The notes under the pieces were generated by a model, which was given only the letters and a program-made list of their open reading frames with translations, ran no database searches and was not told the DNA's origin. A DNA stretch of 64,000 nucleotides from Sulfurimonas aquatica. GTDB taxonomy: Bacteria; Campylobacterota; Campylobacteria; Campylobacterales; Sulfurimonadaceae. Location: positions 2,170,001 through 2,234,000 of the forward strand of contig NZ_CP046072.1 in the NCBI RefSeq assembly GCF_017357825.1. Direction: 5' to 3'. Shown here one piece after another: positions 47,001 to 63,295 of the stretch. The position numbers and the translations under genes are program-made. Every line of letters starts with the position of its first letter. The stretch's first letter is position 1.

Positions 47001-47717
47001 TTACTTGTTACCGTTGTTATTTTTAGAAGGTTCAAGAATTGGCTCAAGTCCAACTTCTTTAGCCCATGCAGCTGTTAAATCATAAGCAGCTGATGCAGTA
47101 TCAAGATTCTTTTGAATTAGTTCTTGTTTCTTCTTAAACTTTTTCTCAATAACTGAGTCAAGTGTAGCAGTACCACCAGATGCAGTATATTTCTTAAGGA
47201 ATCTATCTTTAATTCCCTCTTCAATTGCAGCTTTAGAAACTGTACCAAGAGCACCAAACAGTGCACCTAACATAGCCATGTTAGTTGCAAGTTCAGTACC
47301 AGCTTGATCGATAGCAAACTGAGTAAAGTCTTTAGTAAGAACCTTAACATTTAAGTCAGATAAAACTTTCTTATCGTGTTCAGTTAAAAGCTCTACTTCA
47401 GAGTTAATGATAACTAAACCATTCTCTTTAATACCAGCGTAAAAAGGCATAGTGTATGATTTACCCATAGTAATAACTTGTGGGTGGAAAATCATAACAA
47501 TATCAGGATAAATTACTTCCCCTCTATCGTAAATAGGCACTGTACCTATTCTTGCATAAGACTCTGATGGAGCCATACGTTTTTCAGCACCAAAGAATGG
47601 ATTTGAAACAGCATAGTAACCATCAGTATCAGCAGCAGTTGCAGCAATGTGAGCTGCAGTAACTGCACCTTGACCACCAAGACCCGGAAGTCTTACTTTA
47701 ATTGAATCTTTTGCCAT
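47001..47717 (-). CDS. 2-oxoacid:ferredoxin oxidoreductase, gamma subunit
   Basis: 238 residues of the POR/OGOR gamma family, marked by RLPGLGGQGAVTAAHIAA near the N-terminus. The complex links CO2, CoA thioester and reduced ferredoxin; in the reverse TCA cycle it carboxylates acetyl-CoA to pyruvate or succinyl-CoA to 2-oxoglutarate. Last gene of an operon D-E-A-B-G (minus strand), with its ATG overlapping the beta stop by one base. The substrate of this copy is not decidable by eye. Confidence 0.88.
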   Translation of the reverse strand: MAKDSIKVRLPGLGGQGAVTAAHIAATAADTDGYYAVSNPFFGAEKRMAPSESYARIGTVPIYDRGEVIYPDIVMIFHPQVITMGKSYTMPFYAGIKENGLVIINSEVELLTEHDKKVLSDLNVKVLTKDFTQFAIDQAGTELATNMAMLGALFGALGTVSKAAIEEGIKDRFLKKYTASGGTATLDSVIEKKFKKKQELIQKNLDTASAAYDLTAAWAKEVGLEPILEPSKNNNGNK

Positions 47718-48586
47718 TATAAACGTCCTTCTTCTTTACATTTTGCTAAAAACTCTTCAGCTTCTGGTGAAATATATTTGTAAGACTCAAATCTATCTTT
47801 GTCTTGCTCTTTCATTTCTCCAAGTCCTTCATTAGCACTTAGTCCAATTTCAAGAATACATGGTGTATAGATGTTAAGGAAAGTTGGTCCGATTTCTCTT
47901 GCAACTAATATCGCTTCTCTAACTGCTTTAGCAACTGCTTTAGGAGCAGAAGCTGTCATGTTTATAGAATAGTGACATCCTGATGTAGTAGCTAGCTTCC
48001 ACATTGGCACTTTATCGAACTTTTTACCAGTTGGAGCCATTTTAAATACTTGACCTTTTGGTGTAGCACCTGATTCTTGTCCACCAGTATTTGCGTAAAC
48101 TTCATTATCGAAACAGATTGTTGTAATGTTTTCTTGTCTAAAGAAAGATTGAAGTGTATAGTCAAGACCGATATCAACAGTAGCACCGTCTCCCGCTAAA
48201 ACAACAACATCTTTTTCAGTATCTGGAAATCTCCAGTCAAGAACTCTTTTGATACCAGTTGCAACAGCATTTTGGTTACCAAATAGTGAGTGCACAGTAT
48301 GTAGTGCAATATGTGGGAACATTAATGAAGTACAACCAGTTGAGTTAACAATGATAGTCTCTTCAGGTTTAGGAAGTGCAGAAAGTACATATCTCAATGC
48401 AGCAGCTTCTGGACAACCAGCACATAAAGAGTGCTCTTCTAATAACTCTTTTGATTGTGGAAGTTCTTTAATACCACGAGGCTTGTCTTGATTTTGAGCC
48501 CATGTAGCTTTTTCCTCAAGATCAATAATCTCTTGAGGCATAATGTCTCTAAATTCTGGATTGATTTTATAGATATCTATTGCCAT
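47717..48586 (-). CDS. 2-oxoacid:ferredoxin oxidoreductase, beta subunit (TPP-binding)
   Basis: 289 residues holding the thiamine diphosphate and a 4Fe-4S cluster. LCAGCPEAA and STGCTS supply Cys ligands near the N-terminus and YTPCILEIG a further one. GDGATVDIGLD with the later NEVYANTGGQ is the TPP/Mg motif. Length fits the small beta subunits of the multi-subunit class rather than fused enzymes. Confidence 0.9.
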   Translation of the reverse strand: MAIDIYKINPEFRDIMPQEIIDLEEKATWAQNQDKPRGIKELPQSKELLEEHSLCAGCPEAAALRYVLSALPKPEETIIVNSTGCTSLMFPHIALHTVHSLFGNQNAVATGIKRVLDWRFPDTEKDVVVLAGDGATVDIGLDYTLQSFFRQENITTICFDNEVYANTGGQESGATPKGQVFKMAPTGKKFDKVPMWKLATTSGCHYSINMTASAPKAVAKAVREAILVAREIGPTFLNIYTPCILEIGLSANEGLGEMKEQDKDRFESYKYISPEAEEFLAKCKEEGRL

Positions 48587-48587
48587 A

Positions 48588-49790
48588 CTATGCTCCTTTA
48601 CCTGGATTGATTTTTTCCATAACTTCTTTAATAATTGCTTCAGCAGGCATACTCATACCACCAGCAACTCTAGGTCCGCCAACGATGTCCGCTTCAGTTT
48701 TTTTGTAAAGTGCTTTTTTCACTTCTTTTTCTAACCAACCAACAACATTAAACTCAGGTACAAATATATGTTTTACACCTTCTAGTGCTGTAATAAGTTC
48801 TTCTTCTGGGAATGGTCTAATAGTTCTTAACTTAATAACTTTAGATTTGATTCCAAGTTTCATTAGTTCTCTTTCAGCCTCTTTAGCTTGATGAGAAGCA
48901 GTACCACAAGTAACAAATGCGATTTCAGCGTCTTCACTACCTGTTGTATGAACTAGACCATCTAGGAAGTGCTCAGCATATGGACGTGAACGTTCAACTG
49001 CAGATCTAATTTCAAACTGCCAAGAAGCATGTGTTGCATAAGAGATATAGTTAGACTTCATTACGAATGGATCTCTTAAGAAACGTCCCGGAGGTGTTTC
49101 TGAATCAATCGGAGGTAATGGAGACTTATATGGCTCATATGGGAAGAGTGCGATATCATCAGCAGGAAGCATTACTGCCTCTCTAGTGTGAGATACAAAG
49201 AATCCATCAACTACAGTAATAATAGGCACATGAACATCAGGCTTTTCAGCTACAACGAATGCTGCAATTGACATGTCAAAAAGTTCTTGAACATTTTCAG
49301 CATACCAAATCTGGCATCCAGTCTCTAGCATATAAGAAACTTCCAAGTTATCTGGTTGAATAGTAAGTGGTGAGTTAATACCACGAGCCATTAGAATCAG
49401 TTGACATGGAATTCTAGTTCCTGACCACTGAGCAAAGTTTTCCATTGCTCTTAGTGTACCTGGACCTGAAGTAGTTGTAATTGTTCTAGCACCTGCCATT
49501 GCACAACCTGCAACTTCAGACATAACACCAAACTCATTCTCTCCACGGAAGTATGTACCTACATAACCCTCTGCCCATAGTTCACCGATAAGGTGAGCTG
49601 CTTCAGATTGTGGTGTAATTGGGTACGATACTGATGCATCAACTGTACATCTTTTTACCGCTTCTTTTAAAACTTCAGAACCTGTCATGAAGTGTTTTTC
49701 TCTTGGTGCTTCAAATAATAATTCGTCCGCTGTAACTAGTCTTTGTCCAGACCAGTTATGCGTATCTGTCATATCAGTAATTTTACTCAT
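48588..49790 (-). CDS. 2-oxoacid:ferredoxin oxidoreductase, alpha subunit
   Basis: 400 residues. YPITPQSEAAHLIGELWAEG is the domain I signature; GENEFGVMSEVAGCAMAGAR and TTSGPGTLRAMEN follow, then VVDGFFVSHTRE, which is typical of pyruvate and five-subunit type alpha chains. A transketolase C-like part ends the protein. One base separates it from both neighbours. I cannot settle pyruvate against 2-oxoglutarate from sequence. Confidence 0.9.
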   Translation of the reverse strand: MSKITDMTDTHNWSGQRLVTADELLFEAPREKHFMTGSEVLKEAVKRCTVDASVSYPITPQSEAAHLIGELWAEGYVGTYFRGENEFGVMSEVAGCAMAGARTITTTSGPGTLRAMENFAQWSGTRIPCQLILMARGINSPLTIQPDNLEVSYMLETGCQIWYAENVQELFDMSIAAFVVAEKPDVHVPIITVVDGFFVSHTREAVMLPADDIALFPYEPYKSPLPPIDSETPPGRFLRDPFVMKSNYISYATHASWQFEIRSAVERSRPYAEHFLDGLVHTTGSEDAEIAFVTCGTASHQAKEAERELMKLGIKSKVIKLRTIRPFPEEELITALEGVKHIFVPEFNVVGWLEKEVKKALYKKTEADIVGGPRVAGGMSMPAEAIIKEVMEKINPGKGA

Positions 49791-49791
49791 A

Positions 49792-50361
49792 TTATAATCC
49801 TAGTTCTTTTTTTACTTCTCTAGCTATTTTATTGAATTTTTCAAGTTCTGATGAATGCTGGTCTCTTAATGTAGCCATAGCATCTTCGTGTCCTGATAAA
49901 CCACAAATAGCAACTGTATAACAATCTGTCTCTGATCTAACCATTTTTAATGCAACATTTGCATAGTGACAGTGAACACCGATAAATATCGCTGCTTTAA
50001 TATTGTTATGCCAAATTGTTAAGTTTGGGTGATTTGGATTGATCTCAACTTCTGCATCAATTTTTGGATACTTTGGTCTGTAATCATACATTGGAATCAT
50101 GTTAGCGTTAAGAATTTCTGACATCTCTTTTATAAGAGTAGCTTTCTTTTTAGCTTCTTCGTTAAATCCGTATAGTACTTGTGGACCAGGGAAAATTGTT
50201 GCATTCTCTTTAGTCAACATAACTTTTGCAATTTCTCTCATTGCAATTTCTTCATCTACTATCTCTTCTAGTAAAAGTGCTTTTCCTTCTGGTGGTGTAA
50301 TTACACCTTCATACGTAGCCGCAGGATACGGTGAATAATACGCGGGACCTTGGTTTGCCAT
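49792..50361 (-). CDS. Fifth (epsilon/PorE-type) subunit of the oxidoreductase
   Basis: 189 residues with no Cys cluster. An IFPGPQVLYGF segment, AAIFIGVHCHYANVALKMV and CGLSGHEDAMATLRD mark a Rossmann-like fold resembling the CO dehydrogenase-related extra subunit found in the five-subunit POR and For enzymes of Hydrogenobacter. Four-subunit campylobacterial POR and OorDABC lack it. It lies directly upstream of alpha and 115 bases downstream of the ferredoxin subunit. Its role is unclear, perhaps structural or in CO2 handling (inference). Confidence 0.7.
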   Translation of the reverse strand: MANQGPAYYSPYPAATYEGVITPPEGKALLLEEIVDEEIAMREIAKVMLTKENATIFPGPQVLYGFNEEAKKKATLIKEMSEILNANMIPMYDYRPKYPKIDAEVEINPNHPNLTIWHNNIKAAIFIGVHCHYANVALKMVRSETDCYTVAICGLSGHEDAMATLRDQHSSELEKFNKIAREVKKELGL

Positions 50362-50476
50362 AAGTTCTCCTATGATTTTTTTTAACTGTATTTTGAATTA
50401 AGTCTAAATTCTATACTTGTTTTTTTTAGTTTGAGCCATTTTTATCGAGATTTACTCTCGACAATAGAATGGGAGC

Positions 50477-50704
50477 TTAAACTTCTTTTGCTTCAGCCAT
50501 TTCCATCGAAATACAATCTCGATTAAGTAGGTCAGAACATACGTACACACACAGTGCACACCCTTTACATCTATCTTCATCGACCCAAGATGTATTTCCA
50601 ACTTTATCGAACATTAGCGTATTAGCTTCTGGACAATATAGTGTACACATATTACATTTATGCTCAGCACACTTGTCTGAATCAACTTTTGCTACATAAT
50701 ACAT
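50477..50704 (-). CDS. 2-oxoacid:ferredoxin oxidoreductase, delta (2[4Fe-4S]) subunit
   Basis: A 75-residue ferredoxin-like subunit with eight Cys: CAEHKCNMCTLYC (first cluster, unusual four-residue first gap) and CKGCALCVYVC (second). The position-56 Cys is followed by Ser instead of Pro. It passes electrons between ferredoxin and the beta-subunit cluster. First gene of the operon; the 115-base gap to the next gene has no clear hairpin terminator. Confidence 0.85.
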   Translation of the reverse strand: MYYVAKVDSDKCAEHKCNMCTLYCPEANTLMFDKVGNTSWVDEDRCKGCALCVYVCSDLLNRDCISMEMAEAKEV

Positions 50705-50920: not shown

Positions 50921-51571
50921 TTATTTTTTCTTGCGCACTTTAGAAACTCTACTTTTATTTTCTTTATATTTATAACTTTTTAACTTTTCAATAATTTGAA
51001 AAGAGAGTTCATGTATTTCACTTATTTTACACTCTTCTTCTTTATAGAAGTGTTCTCTATTCTTTTCAAACTTTCCCATCAGCTCTAAAAAATCAATCTT
51101 ATCTAAAAAAGGGTATTTATGTGTTGATTTTTCCTCTCCAAGTACCCACTCGGATAATACACATACAACTAAAAACTCTGGCAGGTAAGCAGGTTTATTT
51201 TTATAGTGATTTCTTACTTTTTGAGCCATAATATCATAATAGGCAATTAAAGGTTCCTCTTTTTTAGTTAAGTGCTTAAGTTCTGGATATATTTTTGTTG
51301 CTTGTGATATATTAATTAAGTAATCTACATTCACAACACATTCTTGTAAATCTTCAAGTAGCTTTTGTAGTGTTTTGTAAACATATGCTATCTCTTCGTT
51401 TTCTTTAAATAGTGGCTCCATAGCCACTTCATCTACTTGTGCAAAATATCTTTCAAGAGCTGTTCTAGAAAAAACAAGTAGTGCTTCACTTTTTACATCA
51501 CGAAGGATAGAAGACTTGATTCTATTTTTACAATTTTCATTAATAAAGTTATGTGTTGGAATTACACTCAT
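50921..51571 (-). CDS. Hypothetical protein downstream of the biotin carboxylase
   Basis: 216 residues, mostly helical by composition, with a basic tail (KSRVSKVRKKK). There is no signal peptide or membrane helix, and I see no known motif. It starts one base after the biotin carboxylase stop, so the two are almost certainly cotranscribed. C. jejuni pycA is also followed by an uncharacterised gene, so it may be a dedicated partner, but that homology is from memory. Confidence 0.65.
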   Translation of the reverse strand: MSVIPTHNFINENCKNRIKSSILRDVKSEALLVFSRTALERYFAQVDEVAMEPLFKENEEIAYVYKTLQKLLEDLQECVVNVDYLINISQATKIYPELKHLTKKEEPLIAYYDIMAQKVRNHYKNKPAYLPEFLVVCVLSEWVLGEEKSTHKYPFLDKIDFLELMGKFEKNREHFYKEEECKISEIHELSFQIIEKLKSYKYKENKSRVSKVRKKK

Positions 51572-51572
51572 A

Positions 51573-53024
51573 TTAACTCCTAGTTGTGAGTTTATTCTCT
51601 TTTATCTTTTTAATCATACTTGATATGAATGAAATTTTTTCATTTTCTGCTTGTAAAGATGACTTTGCATTAAAATTAAAAGTATCCATTTTTTCACCTA
51701 AAAAGCCTGTATTAAACTTTCCAGCTTTAAAGTCGGCATCTCTTACTATCTCTCTATGCAGTGATATGTTTGTTTTAACTCCATCTATATTGTATTCATC
51801 AAGTGCACGCTTTGCTTTTTTCACCGCACCTTCCCAATCTAGTGCAGATACAATAAGTTTACCCATCATAGAATCATAATTTGTAGGTAGTTCATACCCT
51901 TCATATAAAGAAGAGTCTATTCTAACCCCTGGTCCACCTGGCGTTAGATAGTTAGTAATAGTTCCACCTGAAGGCATAAAGTTGTTTTGTGGGTCTTCAG
52001 AGTTTATTCTAAACTCTATTGCATAACCACGGAACTTTATCTCTTCTTGTAAAAAGTGTAGCTTATCTCCGCCAGCAATTTCTATCATTCTTTGAATTAA
52101 ATCAACCCCTGTAATAACTTCAGTGACAGGGTGCTCAACTTGAACTCTAGTATTCATCTCAATAAAGTATATATTGTCATCTTCATCCACTAAAAATTCA
52201 ACTGTTCCAACACTTTCATATCCTAATCTAAACATAGCCTTTGTTGAAACTCTGTATATCTCTTTTCGAACAGTGTCACTTAAGAGTGGTGATGGAGCAA
52301 TCTCTATTACCTTTTGATGACGTCTTTGAATCGAGCAATCTCTCTCACCTAGGTGAACTACATTACCATAGCTATCAGCAATAACTTGTACCTCTATATG
52401 TCTAGGGTTCTCAACATACTTCTCTATAAAAACTTCAGTTTTACCAAAATATTTTAGAGACTCGTTTGTTGCTTCATCAAACATTTTAGAGAATTCTTTT
52501 GCCTTTTTAACGATTCTCATTCCTCTACCACCACCACCAAACGCAGCTTTAATAATTACAGGAAAACCTATCTCGTTAGCGATTCCCTCACCCTCAGCTT
52601 TGTCAACAACCGGTGTATCCGTACCTTCTAGCACTGGAACACCAATTTTCTTCATAGCAACCTTTGATGCCATTTTGTCACCAAATAGTTCTATATGCTC
52701 AGCTTTTGGACCTATAAAAATAATGTCGTTTTCTAAACACGCAGTAGCAAACTCAGCACTCTCAGATAAAAAACCATAACCAGGGTGTATTGCATCACAA
52801 CCTGCTTTTTTTGCGATTGATAAAATTGGCTCAAAATCGAGATAAGCTTGAACTGGATTACCCATTATTGGATAGCACTCATCAGCTTTTCTTACCCAAA
52901 CACCATCTACATCAGCTTCTGAAAAGACAACTACACTTGTTATTTCAAGTTCTTTACAAGCTCTAATAATACGTAAAGCGATTTCACCTCTATTTGCGAT
53001 TAAGACTTTTGATATTTTCTTCAT
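51573..53024 (-). CDS. pycA: Biotin carboxylase (pyruvate carboxylase subunit A type)
   Basis: 483 residues of ATP-grasp biotin carboxylase. VLIANRGEIALRIIRACKEL opens the protein; GYGFLSE, AAFGGGGRGMR (ATP loop), ERDCSIQRRHQKVIE, FIEMNTRVQVEHPVTE and EFRINSEDP follow. The enzyme uses ATP and bicarbonate to carboxylate biotin. Its length is longer than fatty-acid AccC (about 445-455) and matches C. jejuni PycA (481), so it more likely serves pyruvate or 2-oxoglutarate carboxylation. No biotin carrier subunit is nearby. A 246-base gap separates it from purE. Confidence 0.85.
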   Translation of the reverse strand: MKKISKVLIANRGEIALRIIRACKELEITSVVVFSEADVDGVWVRKADECYPIMGNPVQAYLDFEPILSIAKKAGCDAIHPGYGFLSESAEFATACLENDIIFIGPKAEHIELFGDKMASKVAMKKIGVPVLEGTDTPVVDKAEGEGIANEIGFPVIIKAAFGGGGRGMRIVKKAKEFSKMFDEATNESLKYFGKTEVFIEKYVENPRHIEVQVIADSYGNVVHLGERDCSIQRRHQKVIEIAPSPLLSDTVRKEIYRVSTKAMFRLGYESVGTVEFLVDEDDNIYFIEMNTRVQVEHPVTEVITGVDLIQRMIEIAGGDKLHFLQEEIKFRGYAIEFRINSEDPQNNFMPSGGTITNYLTPGGPGVRIDSSLYEGYELPTNYDSMMGKLIVSALDWEGAVKKAKRALDEYNIDGVKTNISLHREIVRDADFKAGKFNTGFLGEKMDTFNFNAKSSLQAENEKISFISSMIKKIKENKLTTRS

Positions 53025-53239
53025 GACTAAGCTCCAAAAATTTAAGATAGTATAATTTTAGTATTATTTAAAAGTTTTATCTTCACTACTTTTGCTTTAT
53101 TAGTTATCTATTCTTGTTATATTTATCTTCTTATTATGCTATATTAATAGGCTATTGTTGATATTAGAATATTTATAAAAAAAGTACTTGCAAGTTAGAG
53201 CTGTATGTTTAGCATGATAGAAGTGTTTATATGTGAAGT

Positions 53240-53270: not shown

Positions 53271-53795
53271 CTAGTTTCCCATCTCTTTTAAATATCGTTT
53301 ATACTCAATATTTTTCAGTTTTTCTGATTTAGCATCGACTTGTGCTTTCATCTCTTGTTTATAGAGTGCTATTTTCTCTCTCAAAGTGCTATCTGAAGAG
53401 CCAATAATTTGTGCAGCTAAGATACCTGCATTTTTAGCACCATTTATCGCAACTGTTGCTACGGGAACACCACCTGGCATCTGTACTATTGAAAGAAGAG
53501 AATCCATTCCTTCCAATGAAGATCCTTTAACGGGTACGCCAATTACAGGTAAAACTGTCTCTGAAGCAACCATACCTGGTAAGTGAGCAGCTCCACCAGC
53601 ACCAGCGATGATTACTTTCAAACCCCTAGCCTCTGCACTTTTAGAATATTCAACTAGCTTTTCTGGTGTTCTGTGTGCAGATACAATATCTAATTCAAAT
53701 TCAATTTCAAACTCTTCACAGATTGCTGCTGCAGCACTCATAACTGGTAAATCAGAGTCACTTCCCATAATAATTCCAACTAATGGTTTACTCAT
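53271..53795 (-). CDS. purE: N5-carboxyaminoimidazole ribonucleotide mutase
   Basis: A 174-residue class I PurE that moves the carboxyl group of N5-CAIR to carbon in purine synthesis. MGSDSDLP and [12 protein letters not shown] are the substrate loops and [14 protein letters not shown] the core signature; [20 protein letters not shown] follows. Its start overlaps the purK stop as ATGA, so it is translated with purK. Confidence 0.96.
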
Positions 53796-54943
53796 ATTTT
53801 CTTGCTTCCTTTAATTTTTAAAATATCTTTTGCTCTCATCGCTTTTTCTAACGCCATATCTATATCATCATCAAGAATTGTTACATGACCCATTTTACGA
53901 TAAGGCTTTGTAAAAGTTTTTCCATAGAAGTGAAAAGACAACTCTGGGATCTCTAATGCATCATGAATACCCTCAATAAATGGCTCACCCTCATAGCCTT
54001 CTTCTCCAAGTAAGTTAATCATTACAGCCGGAGAGATTAGCTTCGTCGAACCCAATGGTAGATTTGTCACAGCTCTTATTATCTGCTCAAATTGTGAAGT
54101 TGCACATGCTTCAACTGTGTAGTGTCCTGAGTTGTGAGGTCTTGGAGCGATTTCATTCACTAAGATTTCTCCCTTTTTAGTTAAAAAAAGTTCAACAGCA
54201 AAAATTCCAACACCCTCTAAAGCTTCTATAGACTTAACGGAAATTTCAATGGATTTTTTTTCAACTTCTTTAGAAATCTTTGCAGGTGCCATAACGATAT
54301 CACAGATGTTAGTTCTATCGTCAAATAGCATCTCGACAACTGGATAACATTTAGTTTGTCCCTCTATATTTCTAGCGACAATAACAGCAAGTTCTTTGTC
54401 AATGTCAACAAGTTCTTCAATGAATGATTCTGTTGGCAAGCGATATGCAAGATCAGCTTTAGTTTTAATCATCTGGACACCCTTGCCATCATAGCCACCC
54501 ATTTTTGCTTTTTGTATAACAGGGAATCCAAATGCAGATAAATCTTCATCATTTTCTACATTTTTATATTTAGGTACGGGAATACCTTTCTCATCAAGTA
54601 GTTTCTTTTGCTCATACTTATTTTGGATTAACTCGATTATATAAGGAGATGGATGAATAATATGTCCATTGTCAAATAACTCTTTTAAAATAGAAGTATC
54701 TACATGCTCTAATTCGAAAGTCGTAACGTCTGTCTCTTGTACTAATTGCTCAAGTTTCTCTTTATCATGGAATCCTCCCATAATATGCTTGTCAGATACT
54801 TGAGCTGCGGGACAATTAAATGTTGGATCTAAAATAGTGACATGAAAGCCCATCTTTTTGGCTTTTTGAGACATTATTTTGCCCAATTGTCCTCCGCCAA
54901 TAATTCCTAGCTTTAGATTAGAATAGTTAAAATTTTTGTCCAT
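53792..54943 (-). CDS. purK: 5-(carboxyamino)imidazole ribonucleotide synthase
   Basis: A 383-residue ATP-grasp ligase that fixes bicarbonate onto aminoimidazole ribonucleotide. [13 protein letters not shown] marks the N-terminal fold; [13 protein letters not shown] is the ATP loop, and [17 protein letters not shown] is diagnostic. PurK reduces the need for high CO2 in purine synthesis, which suits a gene placed among carbon-uptake genes. First gene of purK-purE. Confidence 0.95.
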
Positions 54944-55035
54944 TTTTTCTCTTTATATAGTAAATGCGATATTTTAACCTAATTAATTTGTTAACTATAT
55001 AAATAGTTGCTGGTAAATAGAACTCTTGTAAATTT

Positions 55036-55380
55036 TTAGTTAACCTTTCCAGAGTACTGAAGGTTAATACTCTCTTGTCTTTGCTTCTCCCCTAGAAGTA
55101 ACATAACATCAATAAGCATACATTTACCACCATATTTTTCTAAAAATTTTCTAATATCTACTTCCATATCTTTAAACTGCTCTGCTTCACATACGGTAAA
55201 GACATAGTTATTACTAAAAGCATCACTAACATCATCAGCAGTTCTAACGCCATGGCCTCCAGCACCTTCAATATCTTTAATAATGGTATAACCATATATC
55301 TTATGTTTTTTAAAAAGTTTTATTAGCCTATTCACATAGACAGCTTCGATAACAAATTCGACTTTTTTCATGCTTTTCAT
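55036..55380 (-). CDS. sbtB: SbtB-like PII regulatory protein
   Basis: 114 residues with the PII ferredoxin-like fold: VEFVIEAVYVNRLIKLF strand-helix, a GYTIIKDIEGAGGHGVRTADD T-loop region (about 29-49) and FTVCEAEQF. It lacks the Tyr-containing RGAEY uridylylation site of GlnB and also lacks the C-terminal CGPEGC redox loop of cyanobacterial SbtB. It is four bases downstream of the SbtA gene, so it most likely binds adenyl nucleotides and gates that transporter (family knowledge). Confidence 0.8.
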   Translation of the reverse strand: MKSMKKVEFVIEAVYVNRLIKLFKKHKIYGYTIIKDIEGAGGHGVRTADDVSDAFSNNYVFTVCEAEQFKDMEVDIRKFLEKYGGKCMLIDVMLLLGEKQRQESINLQYSGKVN

Positions 55381-55384
55381 AATT

Positions 55385-56365
55385 CTATCCCCATAATGAA
55401 TTTATAATAAAATAATAGAGTGGAATCCCTAATGAAATATTAAAAGGGAATGTAACTGCTAGACTTAGTGGTAAATATAGACCTGGATTTGCCTCTGGTA
55501 CTGATAATCTCATAGCTGCAGGAACTGCAATGTAAGATGCACTAGCACTTAATAACGCAAGTAAAAAAGCATCACCTTTGTGTATTTCAAACATATATGC
55601 AAAACCTGTTGCAACAAGAGCATTGACTAGTGGCATGATAAGTGCAAATGCTATTAGAAAAAATCCAACTTTTTTAAGTTCATGAATCTTTCTAGCAGCC
55701 ACAAGTCCCATATCTAAAAGAAAGAATGCTAGCATACCCTTAAATAGTGTTCCAAAGAGTGGCTCCATTGAGTGCCAGCCTTTCTCACCTGTAAGTATTC
55801 CTATAAGAAGAGCACCTACAAGTAAAAATACTGAAGGGTTTAAAAATGCTTCTCTAAGAATTTCACCCCAATCAGTTTTCTCCTCTTCTTCACCATCCTT
55901 GGCTTTAACAAAGAGTGCTGCAAAAACTAAACCTATAACGATAGCTGGAGACTCCATAAGAGCCATAGAAGCCACCATAAAACCACCATACTCTACACCG
56001 ATAGTCCCGAGGTATGTTATACCTGTTATAAATGTAACGGCACTAATAGAACCATAAGTAGCAGCGATAGCAATAGAGTTATAAACATCCATCTTTGTTT
56101 TTAAGATAAAAAAACTATAAATAGGTACAAGCATAGACATTCCAACGGCAATCATCAGTGCTTCAAATATATAAAGGTTAAATCCACTCATAGAAAGTTC
56201 ATACCCACCATGTAAACCAATAGCTATAAGTAAGTAGAGAGAAAAGAGCTTAGGTAATGGTTGTGGAATTGTTAGTTCAGACTTTAGAAATACTGCAAGC
56301 ATTCCTAAGAAAAAAAACAGTACAGGGGGATTTAGCATATTCTGTAATATTAAATCGAAATTCAT
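55385..56365 (-). CDS. sbtA: Sodium-dependent bicarbonate transporter SbtA
   Basis: 326 residues from the ATG at 56365, which has GAGGAG seven bases before it; an in-frame TTG at 56380 lies within the ribosome site and is rejected. Two inverted repeats of about five helices each surround a charged cytoplasmic linker (KAKDGEEEEKTDWGE, about 170-184). FITGITYLG, SMALMESPAIVIG and SASASYIAVPAA match SbtA (DUF897). It imports bicarbonate with sodium. First gene of sbtA-sbtB and divergent from the AraC-type gene. Confidence 0.9.
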   Translation of the reverse strand: MNFDLILQNMLNPPVLFFFLGMLAVFLKSELTIPQPLPKLFSLYLLIAIGLHGGYELSMSGFNLYIFEALMIAVGMSMLVPIYSFFILKTKMDVYNSIAIAATYGSISAVTFITGITYLGTIGVEYGGFMVASMALMESPAIVIGLVFAALFVKAKDGEEEEKTDWGEILREAFLNPSVFLLVGALLIGILTGEKGWHSMEPLFGTLFKGMLAFFLLDMGLVAARKIHELKKVGFFLIAFALIMPLVNALVATGFAYMFEIHKGDAFLLALLSASASYIAVPAAMRLSVPEANPGLYLPLSLAVTFPFNISLGIPLYYFIINSLWG

Positions 56366-56469
56366 TTTACTACTCCTCAATATAAAATTGTATCGTATAT
56401 TAACTAAGAATTTTAAGATTATTCTTCACTAATTTTGACATATAAATTATCTATTATTGTGATTTTCAT

Positions 56470-56479
56470 TTACCTTTGA
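56470..56479 (-). promoter_or_regulatory. TCAAAGGTAA motif in the sbtA/araC intergenic region
   Basis: On the minus strand this reads TCAAAGGTAA, identical to 57542-57551 before dabB. It lies about 105 bases upstream of the sbtA start and just before the -35 zone of the AraC-type gene. The location suits a shared operator for both directions. The AraC-type protein as ligand is inference. Confidence 0.45.
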
Positions 56480-56503
56480 TGCTACAAATATTTATATTTT
56501 TGC

Positions 56504-56509
56504 TATAAT
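56504..56509 (+). promoter_or_regulatory. -10 element directly before the AraC-type gene
   Basis: TGCTATAAT is an extended -10. The ATG follows six bases after the TATAAT, so transcription would start at or next to the start codon, giving a leaderless or nearly leaderless mRNA. No ribosome site is visible in the six bases. Confidence 0.5.
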
Positions 56510-56515
56510 CTGAGC

Positions 56516-57391
56516 ATGAAAAGAGAAACGCTGAACAAGAAAACAAAAATATCAAACGATATACTATTCTATATATACACAAATATTGAGATAGATATAA
56601 ATATGGACGAACTTGCGCAGAGCTTTAATATTAGTAAGTTTTATATGCATAAAATATTCAAAGAAATTTTCGGTAGGAACATATATGAGAGCATTAAATC
56701 TATTAGATTACAAAAAGCTTCAACTTTATTACTTACAAATAAGTACTCTACCATTACTGAGATAGCCTCATCCTGCGGATACAGTTCACAAACCTCTTTT
56801 ATCCGAGTATTTAAAGATCGATTTTTGATGACACCAACAGCTTGGAGAAAAGGTGGCTATAAAAAGTACTCTAAAAACATAATCGAAGAATCTCCAAAAG
56901 CAAAGGCTTCCAATGCTAGTTTTGAGAATCTTGAACCTACTATTGTGAAGATGCCCGAAATAGAAGCATACTATCTTAGACATAGTGGATATAACGACCA
57001 AATTAAACAAACTTGGCAAAAGATTCAAACATGGTCATATGGCAACAATATTAAAAGCTATAAGCACATTGCACTATTCCATGATAATCCAACTGTAACA
57101 CATCTTGATGAGTGTCAATATGTTGCATGTATACAAGTCGACAAAGACAATATATCTGAGAATGAGCGCTTACCTAAATTTAAAATATCTAGTGGTATAT
57201 ATGCTAAATTTGATATACATGGAACGGATGGTGACTTCCTACGATTTATGCACTGGCTTTACAATGAATGGCTTCCCCATAGTGAGTATGAGACAACTAC
57301 AAAACCACCCTATGCTATTTATAAAAAAAATAAATACTTATCTGATGATAATAATTTTGACTTAAGTTTTTATTTATCTATTAAGTTTTAA
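56516..57391 (+). CDS. AraC-type regulator with C-terminal GyrI-like domain
   Basis: 291 residues. Two helix-turn-helix units occupy about residues 12-110 (ELAQSFNISKFYMHKIFKEI; ITEIASSCGYSSQTSFIRVF), followed by a GyrI-like small-molecule-binding domain (about 140-291) with YLRHSGYND, CQYVACIQV and SSGIYAKFDIHG. This order, DNA-binding first and ligand domain last, matches the Rob/SoxS-related GyrI class. It lies between sbtAB (divergent) and the DAB operon (same direction), so regulation of carbon uptake is a good guess. Confidence 0.85.
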   Translation: MKRETLNKKTKISNDILFYIYTNIEIDINMDELAQSFNISKFYMHKIFKEIFGRNIYESIKSIRLQKASTLLLTNKYSTITEIASSCGYSSQTSFIRVFKDRFLMTPTAWRKGGYKKYSKNIIEESPKAKASNASFENLEPTIVKMPEIEAYYLRHSGYNDQIKQTWQKIQTWSYGNNIKSYKHIALFHDNPTVTHLDECQYVACIQVDKDNISENERLPKFKISSGIYAKFDIHGTDGDFLRFMHWLYNEWLPHSEYETTTKPPYAIYKKNKYLSDDNNFDLSFYLSIKF

Positions 57392-57400
57392 GTAGCCCTA

Positions 57401-57450
57401 CAATACCTAGATGTGTTTGAACTATTTTATAGGTATTGTTGTAAAATAGT
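57401..57450 (+). promoter_or_regulatory. Interleaved inverted repeats (pseudoknot topology) before dabB
   Basis: CAATACCTA (57401-57409) is complementary to TAGGTATTG (57430-57438), and ACTATTTTA (57421-57429) to TAAAATAGT (57442-57450). All 9+9 pairs are perfect. The order A-B-A'-B' with no bases between B and A' forms either an H-type pseudoknot or two mutually exclusive hairpins. It starts nine bases after the AraC-type stop, so it may be a 3'-end structure, a switch, or two overlapping operators. Confidence 0.5.
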
Positions 57451-57524
57451 AGCACTACTAAGTGTTAAATTGAACTCTTAAGCATAACTTTGTTTTTAAC
57501 TAAACTATATTTAGAAAAATAACC

Positions 57525-57530
57525 TATAAT
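57525..57530 (+). promoter_or_regulatory. Likely -10 of the DAB operon
   Basis: TATAAT in the context AACCTATAATTAC, about 130 bases before the dabB GTG. A start near 57537 would place the repeats at 57532-57557 over the start site, a position suited to repression. No clear -35 box is visible, so activation by a regulator is also possible. Confidence 0.5.
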
Positions 57531-57531
57531 T

Positions 57532-57557
57532 ACAAAGGTTTTCAAAGGTAACTTTGA
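57532..57557 (+). promoter_or_regulatory. Tandem CAAAGGT repeats and dyad, putative operator
   Basis: CAAAGGT occurs at 57533-57539 and 57543-57549, exactly ten bases apart. The second copy is part of TCAAAG-GTAA-CTTTGA (57542-57557), a six-base dyad. TCAAAGGTAA is also present at 56470-56479 (minus strand). Direct repeats one helical turn apart are common for AraC-family proteins, though spacing varies. Confidence 0.45.
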
Positions 57558-57659: not shown

Positions 57660-59261
57660 GTGGAAAAAATTATCTTATCCATTCCATTCATTCCAATAGT
57701 CATAGCATTTATTTTGATGTTTGTTAAACAAAAAGAGTCTATTCCAAGAGTGAGTATTTTTCTATCAAGTATGATTGCACTTCTTGCATTGTATGGAACA
57801 TATCATGTCATAAGTAATGACAAAGCGATTGTTGGATTTGATGGTTTACTTATTTATAATGAACTCTCAGCTATATTAGTTCCTTATGTTGCAATACTGG
57901 GCTTAGTTATCCGAAAATATGCAACTAAGTATATGTGGGATGAAGCGGGGTATAAAAGATTTTTTATTCTTCTAAACTTTATATTTGCATCTATCTACTT
58001 ACTTGTAATGAGCAATAACCTTATTGTACTTGCGTTAGCTTGGCAGCTCATGAGTGTTGGTTTATATCTTCTAGTTTCATTTAATGTAGGTTCTAAAACT
58101 GCTGTAAAAAATGCTAGATGGACGATGTATATCCATAAAAGTGCCGACTTTGTATTCTTACTCGCAGTTATTTTAACATACCAAACATTTGGAAGCTTTG
58201 ATTTACTCGTACTAAAAGAGCAGTGGCTTACAATGTCTGAAAATCCGATTGATGATCCCATGATATTTTCCGTTGGTATACTCTATTTACTTGCGGCAAT
58301 GATGAAATCTGCAATCGTTCCATTTCATATATGGCTACCTTACACATCTGAAGCACCTACTCCAGTATCAGGCTTAATGCATGCTGGCGTTGTAAATGTT
58401 GGGGGAATTTTACTTAATAAAATGGCATATTTACTGATTCTAACACCTGCTGTACTTAATATAGCATTTGTCATTGGTCTATTTACTGCTATTTTTGCAT
58501 CATTGCTTATGCTTGTTGTGTCAGATATCAAACGTTCACTTGGCTACTCAACAGTTGGTCAAATGGGCTACATGATAATGGAAGTAGGCTTAGGTGCATT
58601 TTCCCTTGCGATTTATCACCTTATAGTTCATGGAATTTTTAAGGCCTCACTCTTTTTAGAGTCTGGTAGCATCATAAAGTATGCAAGAAAAGATCCAAGT
58701 ATCCCTGAACGTCTTTCACAAAAAACATTTTCAAAAGATAAAGTGAAATACAAAAGTAGTAAAACATTCAAGTTTATTGCACTTTTTACTATTGTTCCTG
58801 TGGTTGCATTTCTTGGGATTAAAGCATTACTCGCTCCAGAGTTCTTCGAGTTCAATGCAGCTATAGTTATTTTAGCATTTGCATGGCTTACAGGAACACA
58901 GCTTTTATTATCATTTTTTAAAGTATCTAAATTTGATTCTATAAAAGCAATTTTAGGAATTGTAAGTTCTTTCATAGTTGTTTTATTTACATATGAATTT
59001 ATTGGCTTAAGTTTAGAGCACTTTCTTTACGGACATGATTCTTTACTCTTTTACGAAGCAGCAACACTTAATGTGAGTTTAGTCATGGCACTAGTTGTTG
59101 TGGCATTTATTATGTTAATTGGATGGCTATTTATATATAGAAAAGCTTCTATCCATTCTGAAGAAAAGCCAAATCAAACTAAATGGCACTATTATAGATT
59201 CCTAGCAAAAGAAGGTTACTATTTCGATATGTTTAAAAGTTCTAAAAAGGGTAAATTATGA
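57660..59261 (+). CDS. dabB: DabB, proton-channel-like subunit of the DAB carbon pump
   Basis: 533 residues, about 14 membrane helices, of the complex I NuoL/Mrp antiporter family. The family signature KSAIVPFHIWLPYTSEAPTP (about 220-239) and VSGLMHAGVVNVGGILLNK are clear, as are SDIKRSLGYSTVGQMGYM. In DAB systems it couples ion movement to CO2 hydration by DabA. The start is GTG at 57660, preceded by GAGGAG at six bases. Its stop overlaps the next ATG by four bases. Confidence 0.88.
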   Translation: MEKIILSIPFIPIVIAFILMFVKQKESIPRVSIFLSSMIALLALYGTYHVISNDKAIVGFDGLLIYNELSAILVPYVAILGLVIRKYATKYMWDEAGYKRFFILLNFIFASIYLLVMSNNLIVLALAWQLMSVGLYLLVSFNVGSKTAVKNARWTMYIHKSADFVFLLAVILTYQTFGSFDLLVLKEQWLTMSENPIDDPMIFSVGILYLLAAMMKSAIVPFHIWLPYTSEAPTPVSGLMHAGVVNVGGILLNKMAYLLILTPAVLNIAFVIGLFTAIFASLLMLVVSDIKRSLGYSTVGQMGYMIMEVGLGAFSLAIYHLIVHGIFKASLFLESGSIIKYARKDPSIPERLSQKTFSKDKVKYKSSKTFKFIALFTIVPVVAFLGIKALLAPEFFEFNAAIVILAFAWLTGTQLLLSFFKVSKFDSIKAILGIVSSFIVVLFTYEFIGLSLEHFLYGHDSLLFYEAATLNVSLVMALVVVAFIMLIGWLFIYRKASIHSEEKPNQTKWHYYRFLAKEGYYFDMFKSSKKGKL

Positions 59262-59998
59262 TTGCTAATATTATATTTCTTTTGTTAGTCTCTGGTTTGC
59301 CATACTATATTTTTTTAGAAAAGAGTGATAATTTCACAAGTAAATCCATATTTTTACTGAGTGCTTTTATGCTTTCTTGTGCAATTGTTTTGTCTTTTTT
59401 TATACATAATGCACACTCTGAGTCATTAGTTATTATCTCATTTATTAGTGCAATGTACTCTGTATATAGAGCAACAAAGACAACGAATTTTTACAAGTTG
59501 GCTTACTATTTTATATATATCAATGCACCATTTTTTCTTCTTTTTGAAGAGAATGGTGCATTTTACAGCTTATCACTTTTAGTATCAGTAGTAGGTCTTT
59601 ATGCAATTGCAAATTTTTATGAAAAACATTATGGAAGTGCAAACTACCTTTATGTTAGAGGTATAACACTTGCAACTCCATTAGTTGGAATTCATATTAC
59701 AGTGTATCTAATTAGTATAGGCCTTTATCCTCCACTACCAAACTCTCTATTCTTTTTAACTTATATTTTCAATACTCAAGCTGATCTATTATGGTACATC
59801 GTTGTGGTAAGCATATATCTTGGAAACTTTTTAGTTTCTATGAAGGTGTTAGAAAAATCAATTTTTGGAAAAACTAATCCAAATATACATTATGTTGATT
59901 TAAATTTTAAAGAAAAAATTGCTCATTTTATTATAATAGTATTACTCACACTATTAAGTATTTATGGAATTAAGGAGATACTAGTATGGGTATTATAG
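59258..59998 (+). CDS. Uncharacterised membrane protein between dabB and dabA
   Basis: 246 residues with about seven predicted membrane helices. One stretch, LVGIHITVYLISIGLYPPLP, faintly resembles the region around the conserved Pro-rich segment of NuoM/Mrp subunits, so it may be a shortened antiporter-like piece. It overlaps dabB by four bases and dabA by 13 bases, so it is translationally coupled to both. The well-studied two-gene DAB has only DabB and DabA. Role unknown. Confidence 0.75.
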   Translation: MIANIIFLLLVSGLPYYIFLEKSDNFTSKSIFLLSAFMLSCAIVLSFFIHNAHSESLVIISFISAMYSVYRATKTTNFYKLAYYFIYINAPFFLLFEENGAFYSLSLLVSVVGLYAIANFYEKHYGSANYLYVRGITLATPLVGIHITVYLISIGLYPPLPNSLFFLTYIFNTQADLLWYIVVVSIYLGNFLVSMKVLEKSIFGKTNPNIHYVDLNFKEKIAHFIIIVLLTLLSIYGIKEILVWVL

Positions 59999-62859
59999 AA
60001 AAGCTAGATGCCATTAAAGGTAATGTACCACACTATTGGCCAATTGGCTCATTTATTCACCATAATCCATTAAAAGGATTTGAGCATCTTGGCTTTAAAG
60101 ATGGGCTTAATAAAGCAAAGAAAATCTATGGTGGAAAAGTTTATATGGAGCCCTCATATTATTTAAAATTTTATAATGAGGGAAAAATTTCACACTCCAT
60201 TTTAGAAGAAAATCTAAAAGAAGTACTTAAAGTTGACGGGCTAGCAGAGTATTATGACTTAGCTATGAAATGTCTACTCGAAGTTAATCCTCAATGGAAT
60301 CATTTCAGAAAACAAGCGGATAATAAAGAGCATCCAATTGATGAAGAACTTCTTGCATACCTAGATGAGGAGTTCTCATATCATAATAAAGAGAGATGGC
60401 TAAAACAGATCACTAAACATATGACACTTTATGAGATAAATGATATCCTTTTTCATCGTGATGATAAAGAGGTCATAGAAAAAAGTGTTATAGAGTATAT
60501 TACTCGTTTTTTAGATGAAGATCAAACAACACTACCGATGGAAAATAGAGAACTTGGCATGTTTGAAACCTTTAAGCTTTATGAAGATTTTGACTATCCT
60601 CATAACTCTGAAGCCTTTGTAGAAGAAGCACTTGAAAAGCTAAAAGTCAAGAATAAAGAGAGATATCTTCTAACACATATTCTTAAACTACATGGCTGGG
60701 CTGGATTTATCAAATACCGCTCAGAGGACCCTGGCTATTTCCCACAGCAACAAAACCCATCATCTCTAATGGACTATATGGCAATCAGACTCTATTATGA
60801 ACTTGCCTATTTGCAACACAGAAAGATAAATAATTTTGACCTATTGCATGATTACTCTTTAGCAAATGCTTCATATGTAGTACTTAAAATGCTTAAGCAC
60901 AACTATAGTTTACCAGGGAAATATATAGATGCAATGGAGAAGTCTAGTAATTATGATGACATCTTAGAAAGATATGTACAAGAAGAACTTCAACTTGATG
61001 CAAAACAGGTTCACCTCTCAAACGATATACTTAAAAATACAAATATTCCTTTAGTAGAACTCGCTAAGATTATGGAAGTACTACGAGAAGAAGAGGGATA
61101 TATCTGGATGAAGTCTCTTGAAGACACTTATATTCATTCATTTATTGATGAAATGAAACTAACAGATGAACCTGAAATTGAGAGACCATTGGCTTCAGTG
61201 ACAATGTGTTTAGATGTTAGATCTGAGACTGCGAGAAGAGCCATTGAGAGTACTGGAAACTATACAACATATGGTGCTGGAGGATTCTTAGGTTTTCCTA
61301 TAGCTTTTGTTGAGTTTGACAAGACAAACGAACAACTTTTATGTCCAGCCGTTGTCAAACCTGCTAACATAGTGTTTGAGATAGCAAAAGAGACAGATAA
61401 TGAATATAAATCTAAAAAGACTATTAATAAAACTACTAAAAAAGTTATATCTGATCTGAAAAACAACCCATACACACCTTACATAATGGTCGAAGCTATT
61501 GGTTGGATATTTGGGATTAACCTTTTTGGTAAAACATTTGCACCACAAAAAACTGAAAAATTCTTTGCAAACTTTAAAGCTAAAAAACCAAAAACAACTT
61601 ATACATTAGATAAGTTATCAAACGAAGAGATAGAGCTCTATGTAAATAAACTTCATATACACCTTATTAATGAAGCATTAATTAATCACTCTTCATCTAA
61701 GTATACAGATGATGAAATTCAAGAGATAAGAGATCATCTTGTTATAGGAAATACTTTATCATTTGATGTTCCATTAGAATTTTTAAATATACTAAAAAAT
61801 AACTATAATGTTTCAGAAGATGATTATGAGTTACAAAAAATAAAACTTTCTAAAGTTGGATTTACACTTGAAGAGAAAGTTCAGTACTTATATAACTTCT
61901 TAATGATGATAGGACAAATTGATAATTTTGCTGAGTTTGTGATTCTTTCAGGGCATGTTAGTATGTCGGATAACAATCCATTTGAGTCTGCATTAGACTG
62001 TGGTGCTTGTGGTGGCAAGAGTAGTCTTCCAAATAATAGAGCACTCTGTATGATTGCAAACTCACAAGAAGTACGAGAGGCTATAGCAAAAAAAGGTATT
62101 ATAATCCCTGAAGATGTGAGGTTTATACCATCTCTACACATTACTACTACAGATCAAATAGAGTTTCACGATACAGATATTTTAACACAAGCAGAGATGA
62201 AAAGATTTTCTGTAGTTATGAAAGATTTTGAAAAAGCATCAGCTATTGCACGTTATGAAAGAGTGGCACAACTTCCATATACAAAAACTCAAAATGATAT
62301 TATGATCAAATCTATGGATTGGTCAGAAACTAGACCAGAATGGGGATTAGCAGGTGTTATGGGTGTTTTTGCAGGTCCTAGAAAGTCTATCAAGCATATG
62401 CCTTTTGGCAATAGACTTTTTATGCATTCGTATGATTCAAAACTAGATAATGAAGATGCTGACATACTTACACGTATTTTTGATGGTCCACTTGTAGTTG
62501 GAGAGTGGATTAACCTAGAACACTATTTTGCTACCGTAGACAATGCCATATATGGAGCTGGATCTAAGGTATATCATAATGTTGTTTCAAAAGTTGGTGT
62601 ATTTAATGGAAACTATAGTGATCTAAAAATTGGTTTGCCAACACAATCTGTACTTTTAGAAGGTCAAGCATACCATGAACCTGTAAGACTTCTTACTTAT
62701 ATGGAAGCACCTTTAGAACTAGTAGGAAAAGCAGTAGAAAAATCAGTAGCTAAAGAGTTCATTCTTAATGAATGGATACGACCTATCATTGTTGATAAAG
62801 CGGCTGGAAAAGTTTATTCATTTGAATCTGGTGACTTTAAGGTTATTAAAGAATTTTAA
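59986..62859 (+). CDS. dabA: DabA (DUF2309), carbonic-anhydrase-like subunit
   Basis: 957 residues. A beta-carbonic-anhydrase-like zinc site is complete: C408 and D410 in TMCLDVRSE, H657 in LSGHVSMSDNNPF and C672 in ALDCGACGG. The 15-residue distance from His to Cys equals that of Halothiobacillus DabA. AKKGI-to-LPSLHITTTD and GPLVVGEWINLEHYFATVDN are further DUF2309 segments. It hydrates CO2 to bicarbonate vectorially with DabB. A GGAG site lies within the preceding gene. Last gene of the operon. Confidence 0.93.
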   Translation: MGIIEKLDAIKGNVPHYWPIGSFIHHNPLKGFEHLGFKDGLNKAKKIYGGKVYMEPSYYLKFYNEGKISHSILEENLKEVLKVDGLAEYYDLAMKCLLEVNPQWNHFRKQADNKEHPIDEELLAYLDEEFSYHNKERWLKQITKHMTLYEINDILFHRDDKEVIEKSVIEYITRFLDEDQTTLPMENRELGMFETFKLYEDFDYPHNSEAFVEEALEKLKVKNKERYLLTHILKLHGWAGFIKYRSEDPGYFPQQQNPSSLMDYMAIRLYYELAYLQHRKINNFDLLHDYSLANASYVVLKMLKHNYSLPGKYIDAMEKSSNYDDILERYVQEELQLDAKQVHLSNDILKNTNIPLVELAKIMEVLREEEGYIWMKSLEDTYIHSFIDEMKLTDEPEIERPLASVTMCLDVRSETARRAIESTGNYTTYGAGGFLGFPIAFVEFDKTNEQLLCPAVVKPANIVFEIAKETDNEYKSKKTINKTTKKVISDLKNNPYTPYIMVEAIGWIFGINLFGKTFAPQKTEKFFANFKAKKPKTTYTLDKLSNEEIELYVNKLHIHLINEALINHSSSKYTDDEIQEIRDHLVIGNTLSFDVPLEFLNILKNNYNVSEDDYELQKIKLSKVGFTLEEKVQYLYNFLMMIGQIDNFAEFVILSGHVSMSDNNPFESALDCGACGGKSSLPNNRALCMIANSQEVREAIAKKGIIIPEDVRFIPSLHITTTDQIEFHDTDILTQAEMKRFSVVMKDFEKASAIARYERVAQLPYTKTQNDIMIKSMDWSETRPEWGLAGVMGVFAGPRKSIKHMPFGNRLFMHSYDSKLDNEDADILTRIFDGPLVVGEWINLEHYFATVDNAIYGAGSKVYHNVVSKVGVFNGNYSDLKIGLPTQSVLLEGQAYHEPVRLLTYMEAPLELVGKAVEKSVAKEFILNEWIRPIIVDKAAGKVYSFESGDFKVIKEF

Positions 62860-62956: not shown

Positions 62957-63295
62957 ATGTATACAATTGAGATTGATGATCCTTGTAGTTGTTTTAAGAA
63001 AAGTGGTATGGATCAGACTATGACTTTTGAGAATAGAGAAGATGCACACATGAGAGCTAAAGTATTAGAGTGTCGCATGAATCAAGAGTTTTGTCTTACA
63101 CACTACTTTACTGCAGTAGATCTTGGTGAAAAAATTCTTATTACTAAAATAGTACGTCCAGTAGATGAAGATGAAGACTATGACTATGAAGATGTAAAAA
63201 AGCTTATAGCAAACAGTAATGTAAAAATAGGTTTTGATGATGCTGAAGAGACTCCAAATGGTGACAAACGCGGAAAAACTAGTACTCATAGTTAA
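62957..63295 (+). CDS. Hypothetical acidic protein
   Basis: 112 residues. The N-terminus has DPCSCF and further Cys at about residues 39 and 46 (LECRMNQEFCL), then an Asp/Glu-rich segment (DEDEDYDYED) and a hydrophilic tail. There is no signal peptide. A good AAAGGAAAG ribosome site is present. It follows dabA on the same strand but has its own likely promoter. Function unknown. Confidence 0.65.
   Translation: MYTIEIDDPCSCFKKSGMDQTMTFENREDAHMRAKVLECRMNQEFCLTHYFTAVDLGEKILITKIVRPVDEDEDYDYEDVKKLIANSNVKIGFDDAEETPNGDKRGKTSTHS

Follow-up and report, generated by a model that had tools for sequence, protein, structure and literature searches.

The window, i.e., the whole stretch of 64,000 nucleotides from Sulfurimonas aquatica that was analysed, holds an araC-type regulator gene between sbtA, which is read on the minus strand, and a dab gene run, which is read on the plus strand (Table 1). 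The sbtA gene is followed by genes presumed to be sbtB, purK and purE, and farther along the minus strand by the genes for a biotin carboxylase subunit and a 216-aa protein, for which no family match was found in Pfam to E 0.1 or in NCBIfam to E 1e-10. As start of sbtA the ATG at 56365 after GAGGAG is probably used rather than the TTG at 56380. Beside the carboxylase genes, at window positions 47001-50704, there is a 2-oxoacid:ferredoxin oxidoreductase-like cluster of the CO2-fixing rTCA enzyme type, in which PorC_KorC exceeded its cut-off and PorB- and PorA-like matches remained under theirs. A 112-aa gene without Pfam match is located behind dabA (62957-63295).

Table 1. Genes, promoter elements and predicted regulatory sites at the locus (positions in the window).
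Feature	Position	Strand	Basis
216-aa protein	50921..51571	-	gene order: behind biotin carboxylase in the window as in several relatives
Biotin carboxylase subunit, AccC/PycA/CfiB type	51573..53024	-	Biotin_carb_N, CPSase_L_D2, Biotin_carb_C; NCBIfam
Second putative tandem operator, upstream of biotin carboxylase gene	53079..53119	+	41.2 bits; E 2.5e-7
Weaker in-phase repeats after carboxylase-side operator	53126-53141, 53148-53163		
purK 53792-54943, purE 53271-53795, downstream of sbtAB	53271..54943	-	ORFs; same neighbours in relatives
sbtB-like, P-II family protein	55036..55380	-	PF00543
sbtA, Na+-dependent bicarbonate transporter	55385..56365	-	PF05982, E 2e-118
Putative tandem operator sbtA/araC; half-sites 56425-56440 TTCACTAATTTTGACA, 56447-56462 TTATCTATTATTGTGA	56422..56462	+	38.5 bits; E 8.5e-8
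Third half-site TTTACCTTTGATGCTA, weaker, in phase	56469..56484	+	9.5 bits; holds minus-strand TCAAAGGTAA
TCAAAGGTAA, sbtA side	56470..56479	-	sequence; not conserved as such
araC-type regulator, N-terminal AraC/HTH_18 and C-terminal GyrI-like domain (Rob/STM3175 layout)	56516..57391	+	Pfam, NCBIfam, model, Foldseek
dabB -10 box TATAAT, probable	57525..57530	+	sequence; CTATAAT in L145, L152
TCAAAGGTAA, dab side; in dyad TCAAAG-GTAA-CTTTGA, likely dab leader	57542..57551	+	judged coincidence
dabB 57660-59261, unassigned protein 59258-59998, dabA 59986-62859	57660..62859	+	PF00361, PF10070

The biotin carboxylase exceeds the cut-off of a broad subfamily only (PRK08591, 630.7 vs. 597), and one PYC_OADA gene is found elsewhere in the genome. 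Since an excerpt of Braakman and Smith (PMC3917532) places Sulfurimonas with the organisms whose rTCA variant has a single isocitrate dehydrogenase and no 2-oxoglutarate biotin carboxylase, the enzyme could be pyruvate carboxylase subunit A, for which bicarbonate would be a substrate as well.

The regulator possesses the double HTH of the AraC type, with PF12833 and PF00165 over their cut-offs and matches to SoxS, MarA and Rob, and a GyrI-like domain (PF06445, 86.5 bits, cut-off 26), for which structure comparison gave the SbmC fold (1jyh) with a TM-score of 0.80 by target. Its predicted structure is confident (pLDDT 90.8) and its best Foldseek matches are STM3175 (7r3w) and Rob (1d5y); the NCBIfam cut-off for the RobA equivalog was not reached (72.1 vs. 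380 bits). Proteins of the Rob type work as monomers at asymmetric sites, so that tandem direct repeats would suit such a regulator better than dyads.

A sequence-only reading of this DNA had pointed to the 10-mer TCAAAGGTAA, which is present in the control regions of both sbtA and dabB, and had interpreted it as the possible trace of a regulator binding both promoters. The description itself is exact: both copies are at the positions claimed for them, the two CAAAGGT copies at dabB (57533-57539 and 57543-57549) are spaced by 10 bp, and the dyad TCAAAG-GTAA-CTTTGA (57542-57557) is perfect and lies 12 bp past the TATAAT box. The window holds only these two copies, where 0.21 are expected and at least two were obtained in 3 of 100 shuffles. 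When the two intergenic regions (135 bp for sbtA/araC, 268 bp upstream of dab) were compared, any common 10-mer on either strand was obtained in 36.8% of 2000 dinucleotide-preserving shuffles, and in the real DNA of the window, other non-coding stretches taken in pairs have one as well in 39 of 156 cases. A genome-wide motif scan and conservation in the intergenic DNA of relatives had been named as checks along with the claim, and both speak against it. In the 2.85 Mb of the genome (two contigs) TCAAAGGTAA is no commoner than the reversed control pattern, with 14 exact copies vs. 19. None of 102 deduplicated araC upstream regions from relatives (200 bp each) carries it, exactly or with one mismatch, and none of the 29 other dabB matches has an exact copy in the 300 bp upstream. 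The dabB sample comprises 30 matches from 28 genomes among the 228 of the family, and two of these matches are fragments of a single disrupted gene that share their upstream DNA; CAAAGG on either strand precedes dabB in three of the 30 upstream regions, including that of the window. As chance-level sharing, missing enrichment in the genome and absence in relatives coincide, TCAAAGGTAA was rejected as operator. It is highly improbable that it constitutes the AraC-type protein's operator common to the sbtA and dab promoters, even though an exact copy is found in both regions and the dab side offers a direct repeat and a dyad, all the more as the site on the sbtA side is better accounted for by a conserved element. 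The copy on the dab side is judged a coincidence.

This element was found by aligning the DNA before araC orthologues, which revealed a strongly conserved block. It consists of two direct repeats near TTATCTATTTTTGCTA that are 22 bp apart, and it lies 8 bp from the sbtA-side TCAAAGGTAA. A matrix derived from 89 non-redundant araC upstream regions, with the consensus TTCTTCACTnTTTTTGCTATnAAAATTATCTATTnTTGCTA, scored above 18 bits in 73 of these same regions, on which it was trained (72 without the window), at 14-18 bits in two and below 14 bits in 14; in a block-shuffled control of all loci (1.32 Mb) two hits above 14 were obtained. If the matrix is built without the window, two strong sites are found there, one before the biotin carboxylase gene and one between sbtA and araC, with the scores given in Table 1. 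Behind the carboxylase-side operator a second hit follows in phase (53123-53163, 18.2 bits), and the half-site G of this array recurs at 53094, 53116, 53138 and 53160. The next unrelated hit in the window reaches 11.4 bits and covers the purK start (54911-54951); being weak and not among the 48 genome hits, it was set aside as operator. The genome (2.85 Mb) was searched with a sequence model of 32 relatives' sites from which the window was left out, and 150 of 8713 first-look candidates were scored. The sbtA/araC site was the best hit and the carboxylase-side site the second, followed at a distance by a third-best hit with E 0.16, i.e., the genome has two strong copies.

The repeats are strictly phased. 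Around the second repeat, half-site scores have maxima at 0, -22 and +22 and drop almost to background at +21 and +23; a half-site of at least 5 bits is found at +22 in 40% of 72 relatives, at +44 in 14% and at +21 or +23 in none, so direct-repeat half-sites recur at a fixed spacing of two turns. In the reading direction of the divergent gene, the proximal half-site directly adjoins the -35 position. The distance from there to the -10 box is constant, and in 53 rows columns 60-65 hold T 81%, A 85%, A 53%, A 94%, A 91%, T 79%. The carboxylase promoter of the window fits with TAAAAT. The -10 box of sbtA, TTAATA, is a poor match, which might fit an activator-dependent promoter.

The score of the third half-site on the sbtA/araC side is reached by 0.02% of window positions and by about 0.1% of AT-rich ones. 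This half-site overlaps the presumed araC -35, and the araC TATAAT is located at 56504-56509. The minus-strand 10-mer lies within this third, weaker half-site, and one part of the sequence-only reading survives: the AraC-type protein appears to have a site between sbtA and araC. The part which made TCAAAGGTAA the common operator of sbtA and dab does not, for its sharing is at chance level, it is not conserved, and a half-site is lacking at dab. As separate observations, a lone minus-strand half-site (13.5 bits) extends across the araC start codon (56512-56527), and the araC -10 box ends 6 bases before the ATG (56504-56516), similarly close in many relatives; because of this proximity the araC transcript may be leaderless.

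The distribution of the element was compared with that of the regulator gene. Among 135 genomes of the genus, strong sites (E at most 1e-4) were found in 35 of the 52 whose araC match has E < 1e-100 and in none of the 83 others, to which G155 (35% identity) and G215 (an araC fragment) belong and in which the best hit had 6.2e-4 (G085). The remaining 17 araC genomes have no strong site; as 48 candidates per genome were scored under strict filters, weak sites were possibly missed. Many of the 35 genomes also trained the model, and therefore more weight is given to carboxylase orthologues and to other families. In genomes without a close araC, the element was found before none of 16 biotin carboxylase orthologues (400 bp upstream; best 3.4 bits, either strand), these being 16 of 19 such genomes (G165 and G166 lack the gene start, and the contig of G210 begins 27 bases before it). 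It precedes six of six hand-picked araC-adjacent biotin carboxylase genes and three of seven scorable ones away from araC (18.7, 24.5 and 14.4 bits; one further locus was too short). In a sample of 199 genomes from the order, all nine strong sites outside the family are directly upstream of an araC orthologue that is 51-62% identical. These nine were outside the training set, with 30-38 of 41 bases alike at best, and two of them, L285 and L286, are identical. Three genomes (G013, G020, G224) have an araC match, yet no strong site in the order-wide search. The divergent gene at the nine sites encodes a biotin carboxylase in two cases, a PLP aminotransferase in three and an EamA-type exporter in four, the latter two names being read from the sequences and not from a family search. 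Taken across genomes, the element goes with the araC-type regulator gene.

T-rich phased promoters and extended -10 boxes occur in this phylum, and the repeats could instead be bound by another regulator or reflect promoter architecture; their core TTTTTGCTA looks like araC's own extended -10, and in several relatives the array extends into the araC promoter. This is unlikely, since the sites track the presence of araC and not the target gene, stay beside araC when the divergent gene changes and occur in two strong copies in this genome, which is not the behaviour of a general promoter feature. Binding by the AraC-type protein is therefore the preferred reading of the repeats.

As main target of the regulator the biotin carboxylase gene is probable. 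In two relatives' loci (L212, L214) one operator is followed by the biotin carboxylase, the 216-aa protein, sbtA, sbtB, purK and purE; in the window, the run sbtA-sbtB-purK-purE stands in front, with the carboxylase and 216-aa genes placed behind the second operator. The operator is also found before isocitrate dehydrogenase (L205, L216 = L024, L048; weaker, at 18-19 bits, in L020 and L021) and before a pyridine nucleotide-disulphide oxidoreductase (L208, L210), and a strong one precedes the gene of a small beta-barrel outer membrane protein away from araC at three loci (L204, L206, L207). In a tree of 88 araC proteins, the label for a biotin carboxylase neighbour changes 14 times vs. 28.8 in shuffles and that for an isocitrate dehydrogenase neighbour four times vs. 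9.7, and the tree shows these neighbours of araC to have been swapped repeatedly.

A close sbtA (79% or more) is rare and was found in 12 of 228 family genomes. In ten of the 12, sbtA and araC are on one contig within about 7 kb, and araC is also present in the two remaining genomes. In 11 relatives sbtA is located behind the carboxylase run (four) or behind isocitrate dehydrogenase (three; G102 and G094 with a site before it, G221 ending at the contig edge), is the first gene of a separate run with purK-purE that has no site immediately before it (G131, G059, G076) or is convergent, beside araC (G048). No site above 10 bits was found in the 2.2-2.9 kb upstream of sbtA in G131 and G059, and the only site in G076 precedes isocitrate dehydrogenase, 6.4 kb from sbtA. 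Only in the window does sbtA have its own operator.

For the dab genes a different picture emerged. On neither strand of their upstream region in the window does a half-site of the conserved element exceed 4.5 bits, and the best 41-mer there scores -3.4. The best score before any dabB, 14.8 (L145, genome G129), is taken as chance because G129 has no araC match. With no operator upstream, dab was rejected as a target of the AraC-type regulator, and there is no evidence that this regulator controls the dab genes. The dab promoters that by eye are most like that of the window, L145 and L152 (G201), both come from genomes in which no araC match was found. The core TTTTAACTAAA.TATATTTA ... CTATAATTACA is common to the window and L145, where the 10-mer is altered, and CTATAAT with similar flanks is present in both L145 and L152. 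For these comparisons L145 was aligned with the window, and L152 was read directly in its upstream sequence. The missing half-site and the similar core in L145, where araC is lacking, make it most likely that dab is under its own separate control. A generic promoter scan gave 6 promoter-like sites, fewer than the 9.9 in shuffles.

It was also considered whether the dyad and direct repeat at dab are a real site of another regulator, or a short 5' hairpin of the dab transcript. The perfect 6-bp dyad with its GTAA loop right after the -10 box would suit this, as would the partial likeness in L145, but the dyad and the second CAAAGGT are absent in L145 and L152 and the folding of the dab leader is ordinary (z -0.95; 39 of 200 shuffles were equally or more stable), and the idea is regarded as quite improbable. 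Upstream of the dab -10 box, TTTTAACTAAACTATATTTA (57494-57513) is retained in L145 as TTTTAACTAAAGTATATTTA. In other relatives, CACTAAATTTTAGCTTTA or GCTAAATTTTAGCTTTA is located about 100 bp before dabB (L133, L136 and L151, and with 1-2 changes L134, L146 and L149), and a stretch like AAATGCTAAAAGTCT follows further down in the same upstream regions. These stretches may be the site of the actual dab regulator in those relatives.

The best overall explanation, to which a probability of about 0.78 is assigned, is that a Rob-like AraC/GyrI regulator acts on two tandem operators, with a third half-site at araC, and that the twin 10-mer at dab is coincidental. The regulator would bind as tandem monomers to the direct repeats near TTATCTATTTTTGCTA, with 22 bp corresponding to two helical turns. 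Since the half-site nearest the target gene abuts the -35 region, the protein bound there could recruit RNA polymerase, as AraC does at araI1-I2. The operator before the carboxylase would drive the biotin carboxylase gene, and that between sbtA and araC would drive sbtA-sbtB, perhaps together with purK-purE. Via the third half-site over the araC -35 the regulator may adjust its own expression, the extra repeats reaching towards araC, and the sbtA-side TCAAAGGTAA would be nothing but a part of this half-site. The putative targets are united by HCO3-/CO2: HCO3- is taken up by SbtA and used by the biotin carboxylase and PurK, and isocitrate dehydrogenase carries out CO2 fixation in the reverse TCA cycle. 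By analogy with araI1-I2, activation of HCO3-/CO2-handling genes is likely. As signal, inorganic carbon or 2-oxoglutarate/oxaloacetate can be envisaged; it need not be inorganic carbon, because the divergent gene in other families mostly encodes a PLP aminotransferase or an EamA-type exporter.

CbbR and CcmR are LysR-type regulators of Calvin-cycle autotrophs. A counterpart to them in reverse-TCA Campylobacterota can be imagined as a low-CO2 programme, in which the regulator would respond to inorganic carbon or to a product of carboxylation and jointly induce SbtA, biotin carboxylase, PurK and isocitrate dehydrogenase; this wider proposal is tentative and at present rather doubtful. Independently of it, a chance motif gives way to a specific, testable prediction that names the regulator, its two exact operators and a few genes of this genome. 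If true, this would give a handle on the control of bicarbonate uptake and carboxylation in Sulfurimonas-type rTCA autotrophs.

In the open-access literature searched, no description of such a Sulfurimonas regulator-operator circuit was found, which does not prove its absence elsewhere. The inorganic carbon toolkit of autotrophs, with SbtA, DAB/DAC and carbonic anhydrases, as set out in an excerpt of PMC10880623, is reflected here by SbtA, DabA, PurK-PurE and biotin carboxylase. The same excerpt argues that HCO3--using PurK and biotin carboxylase, the latter aiding isocitrate dehydrogenase, suit low CO2 and lower the CO2 demand. Unlike the present proposal, the portion of that source considered does not mention any regulator or operator in rTCA users; in its main text 'LysR' is absent and 'regulat' occurs four times.

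The predicted arrangement resembles that of AraC at araI1-I2 of araBAD in its direct-repeat half-sites about two turns apart, of which the proximal one is located next to the -35, and in the regulator gene, which is divergent and whose control region overlaps. It differs in the spacing (22 bp here, 21 bp at araI1-I2), in the number of half-sites (up to four), in their sequence and in the protein, which has a C-terminal GyrI-like domain and no N-terminal arabinose-binding domain. With Rob, SoxS, MarA and STM3175 (7r3w), which are among the nearest solved structures, the regulator shares the N-terminal AraC-type double HTH, and a GyrI-like domain at the C-terminus is present in Rob and STM3175 too. 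In contrast to this group, the sites predicted here are tandem 22-bp repeats and the predicted targets are metabolic.
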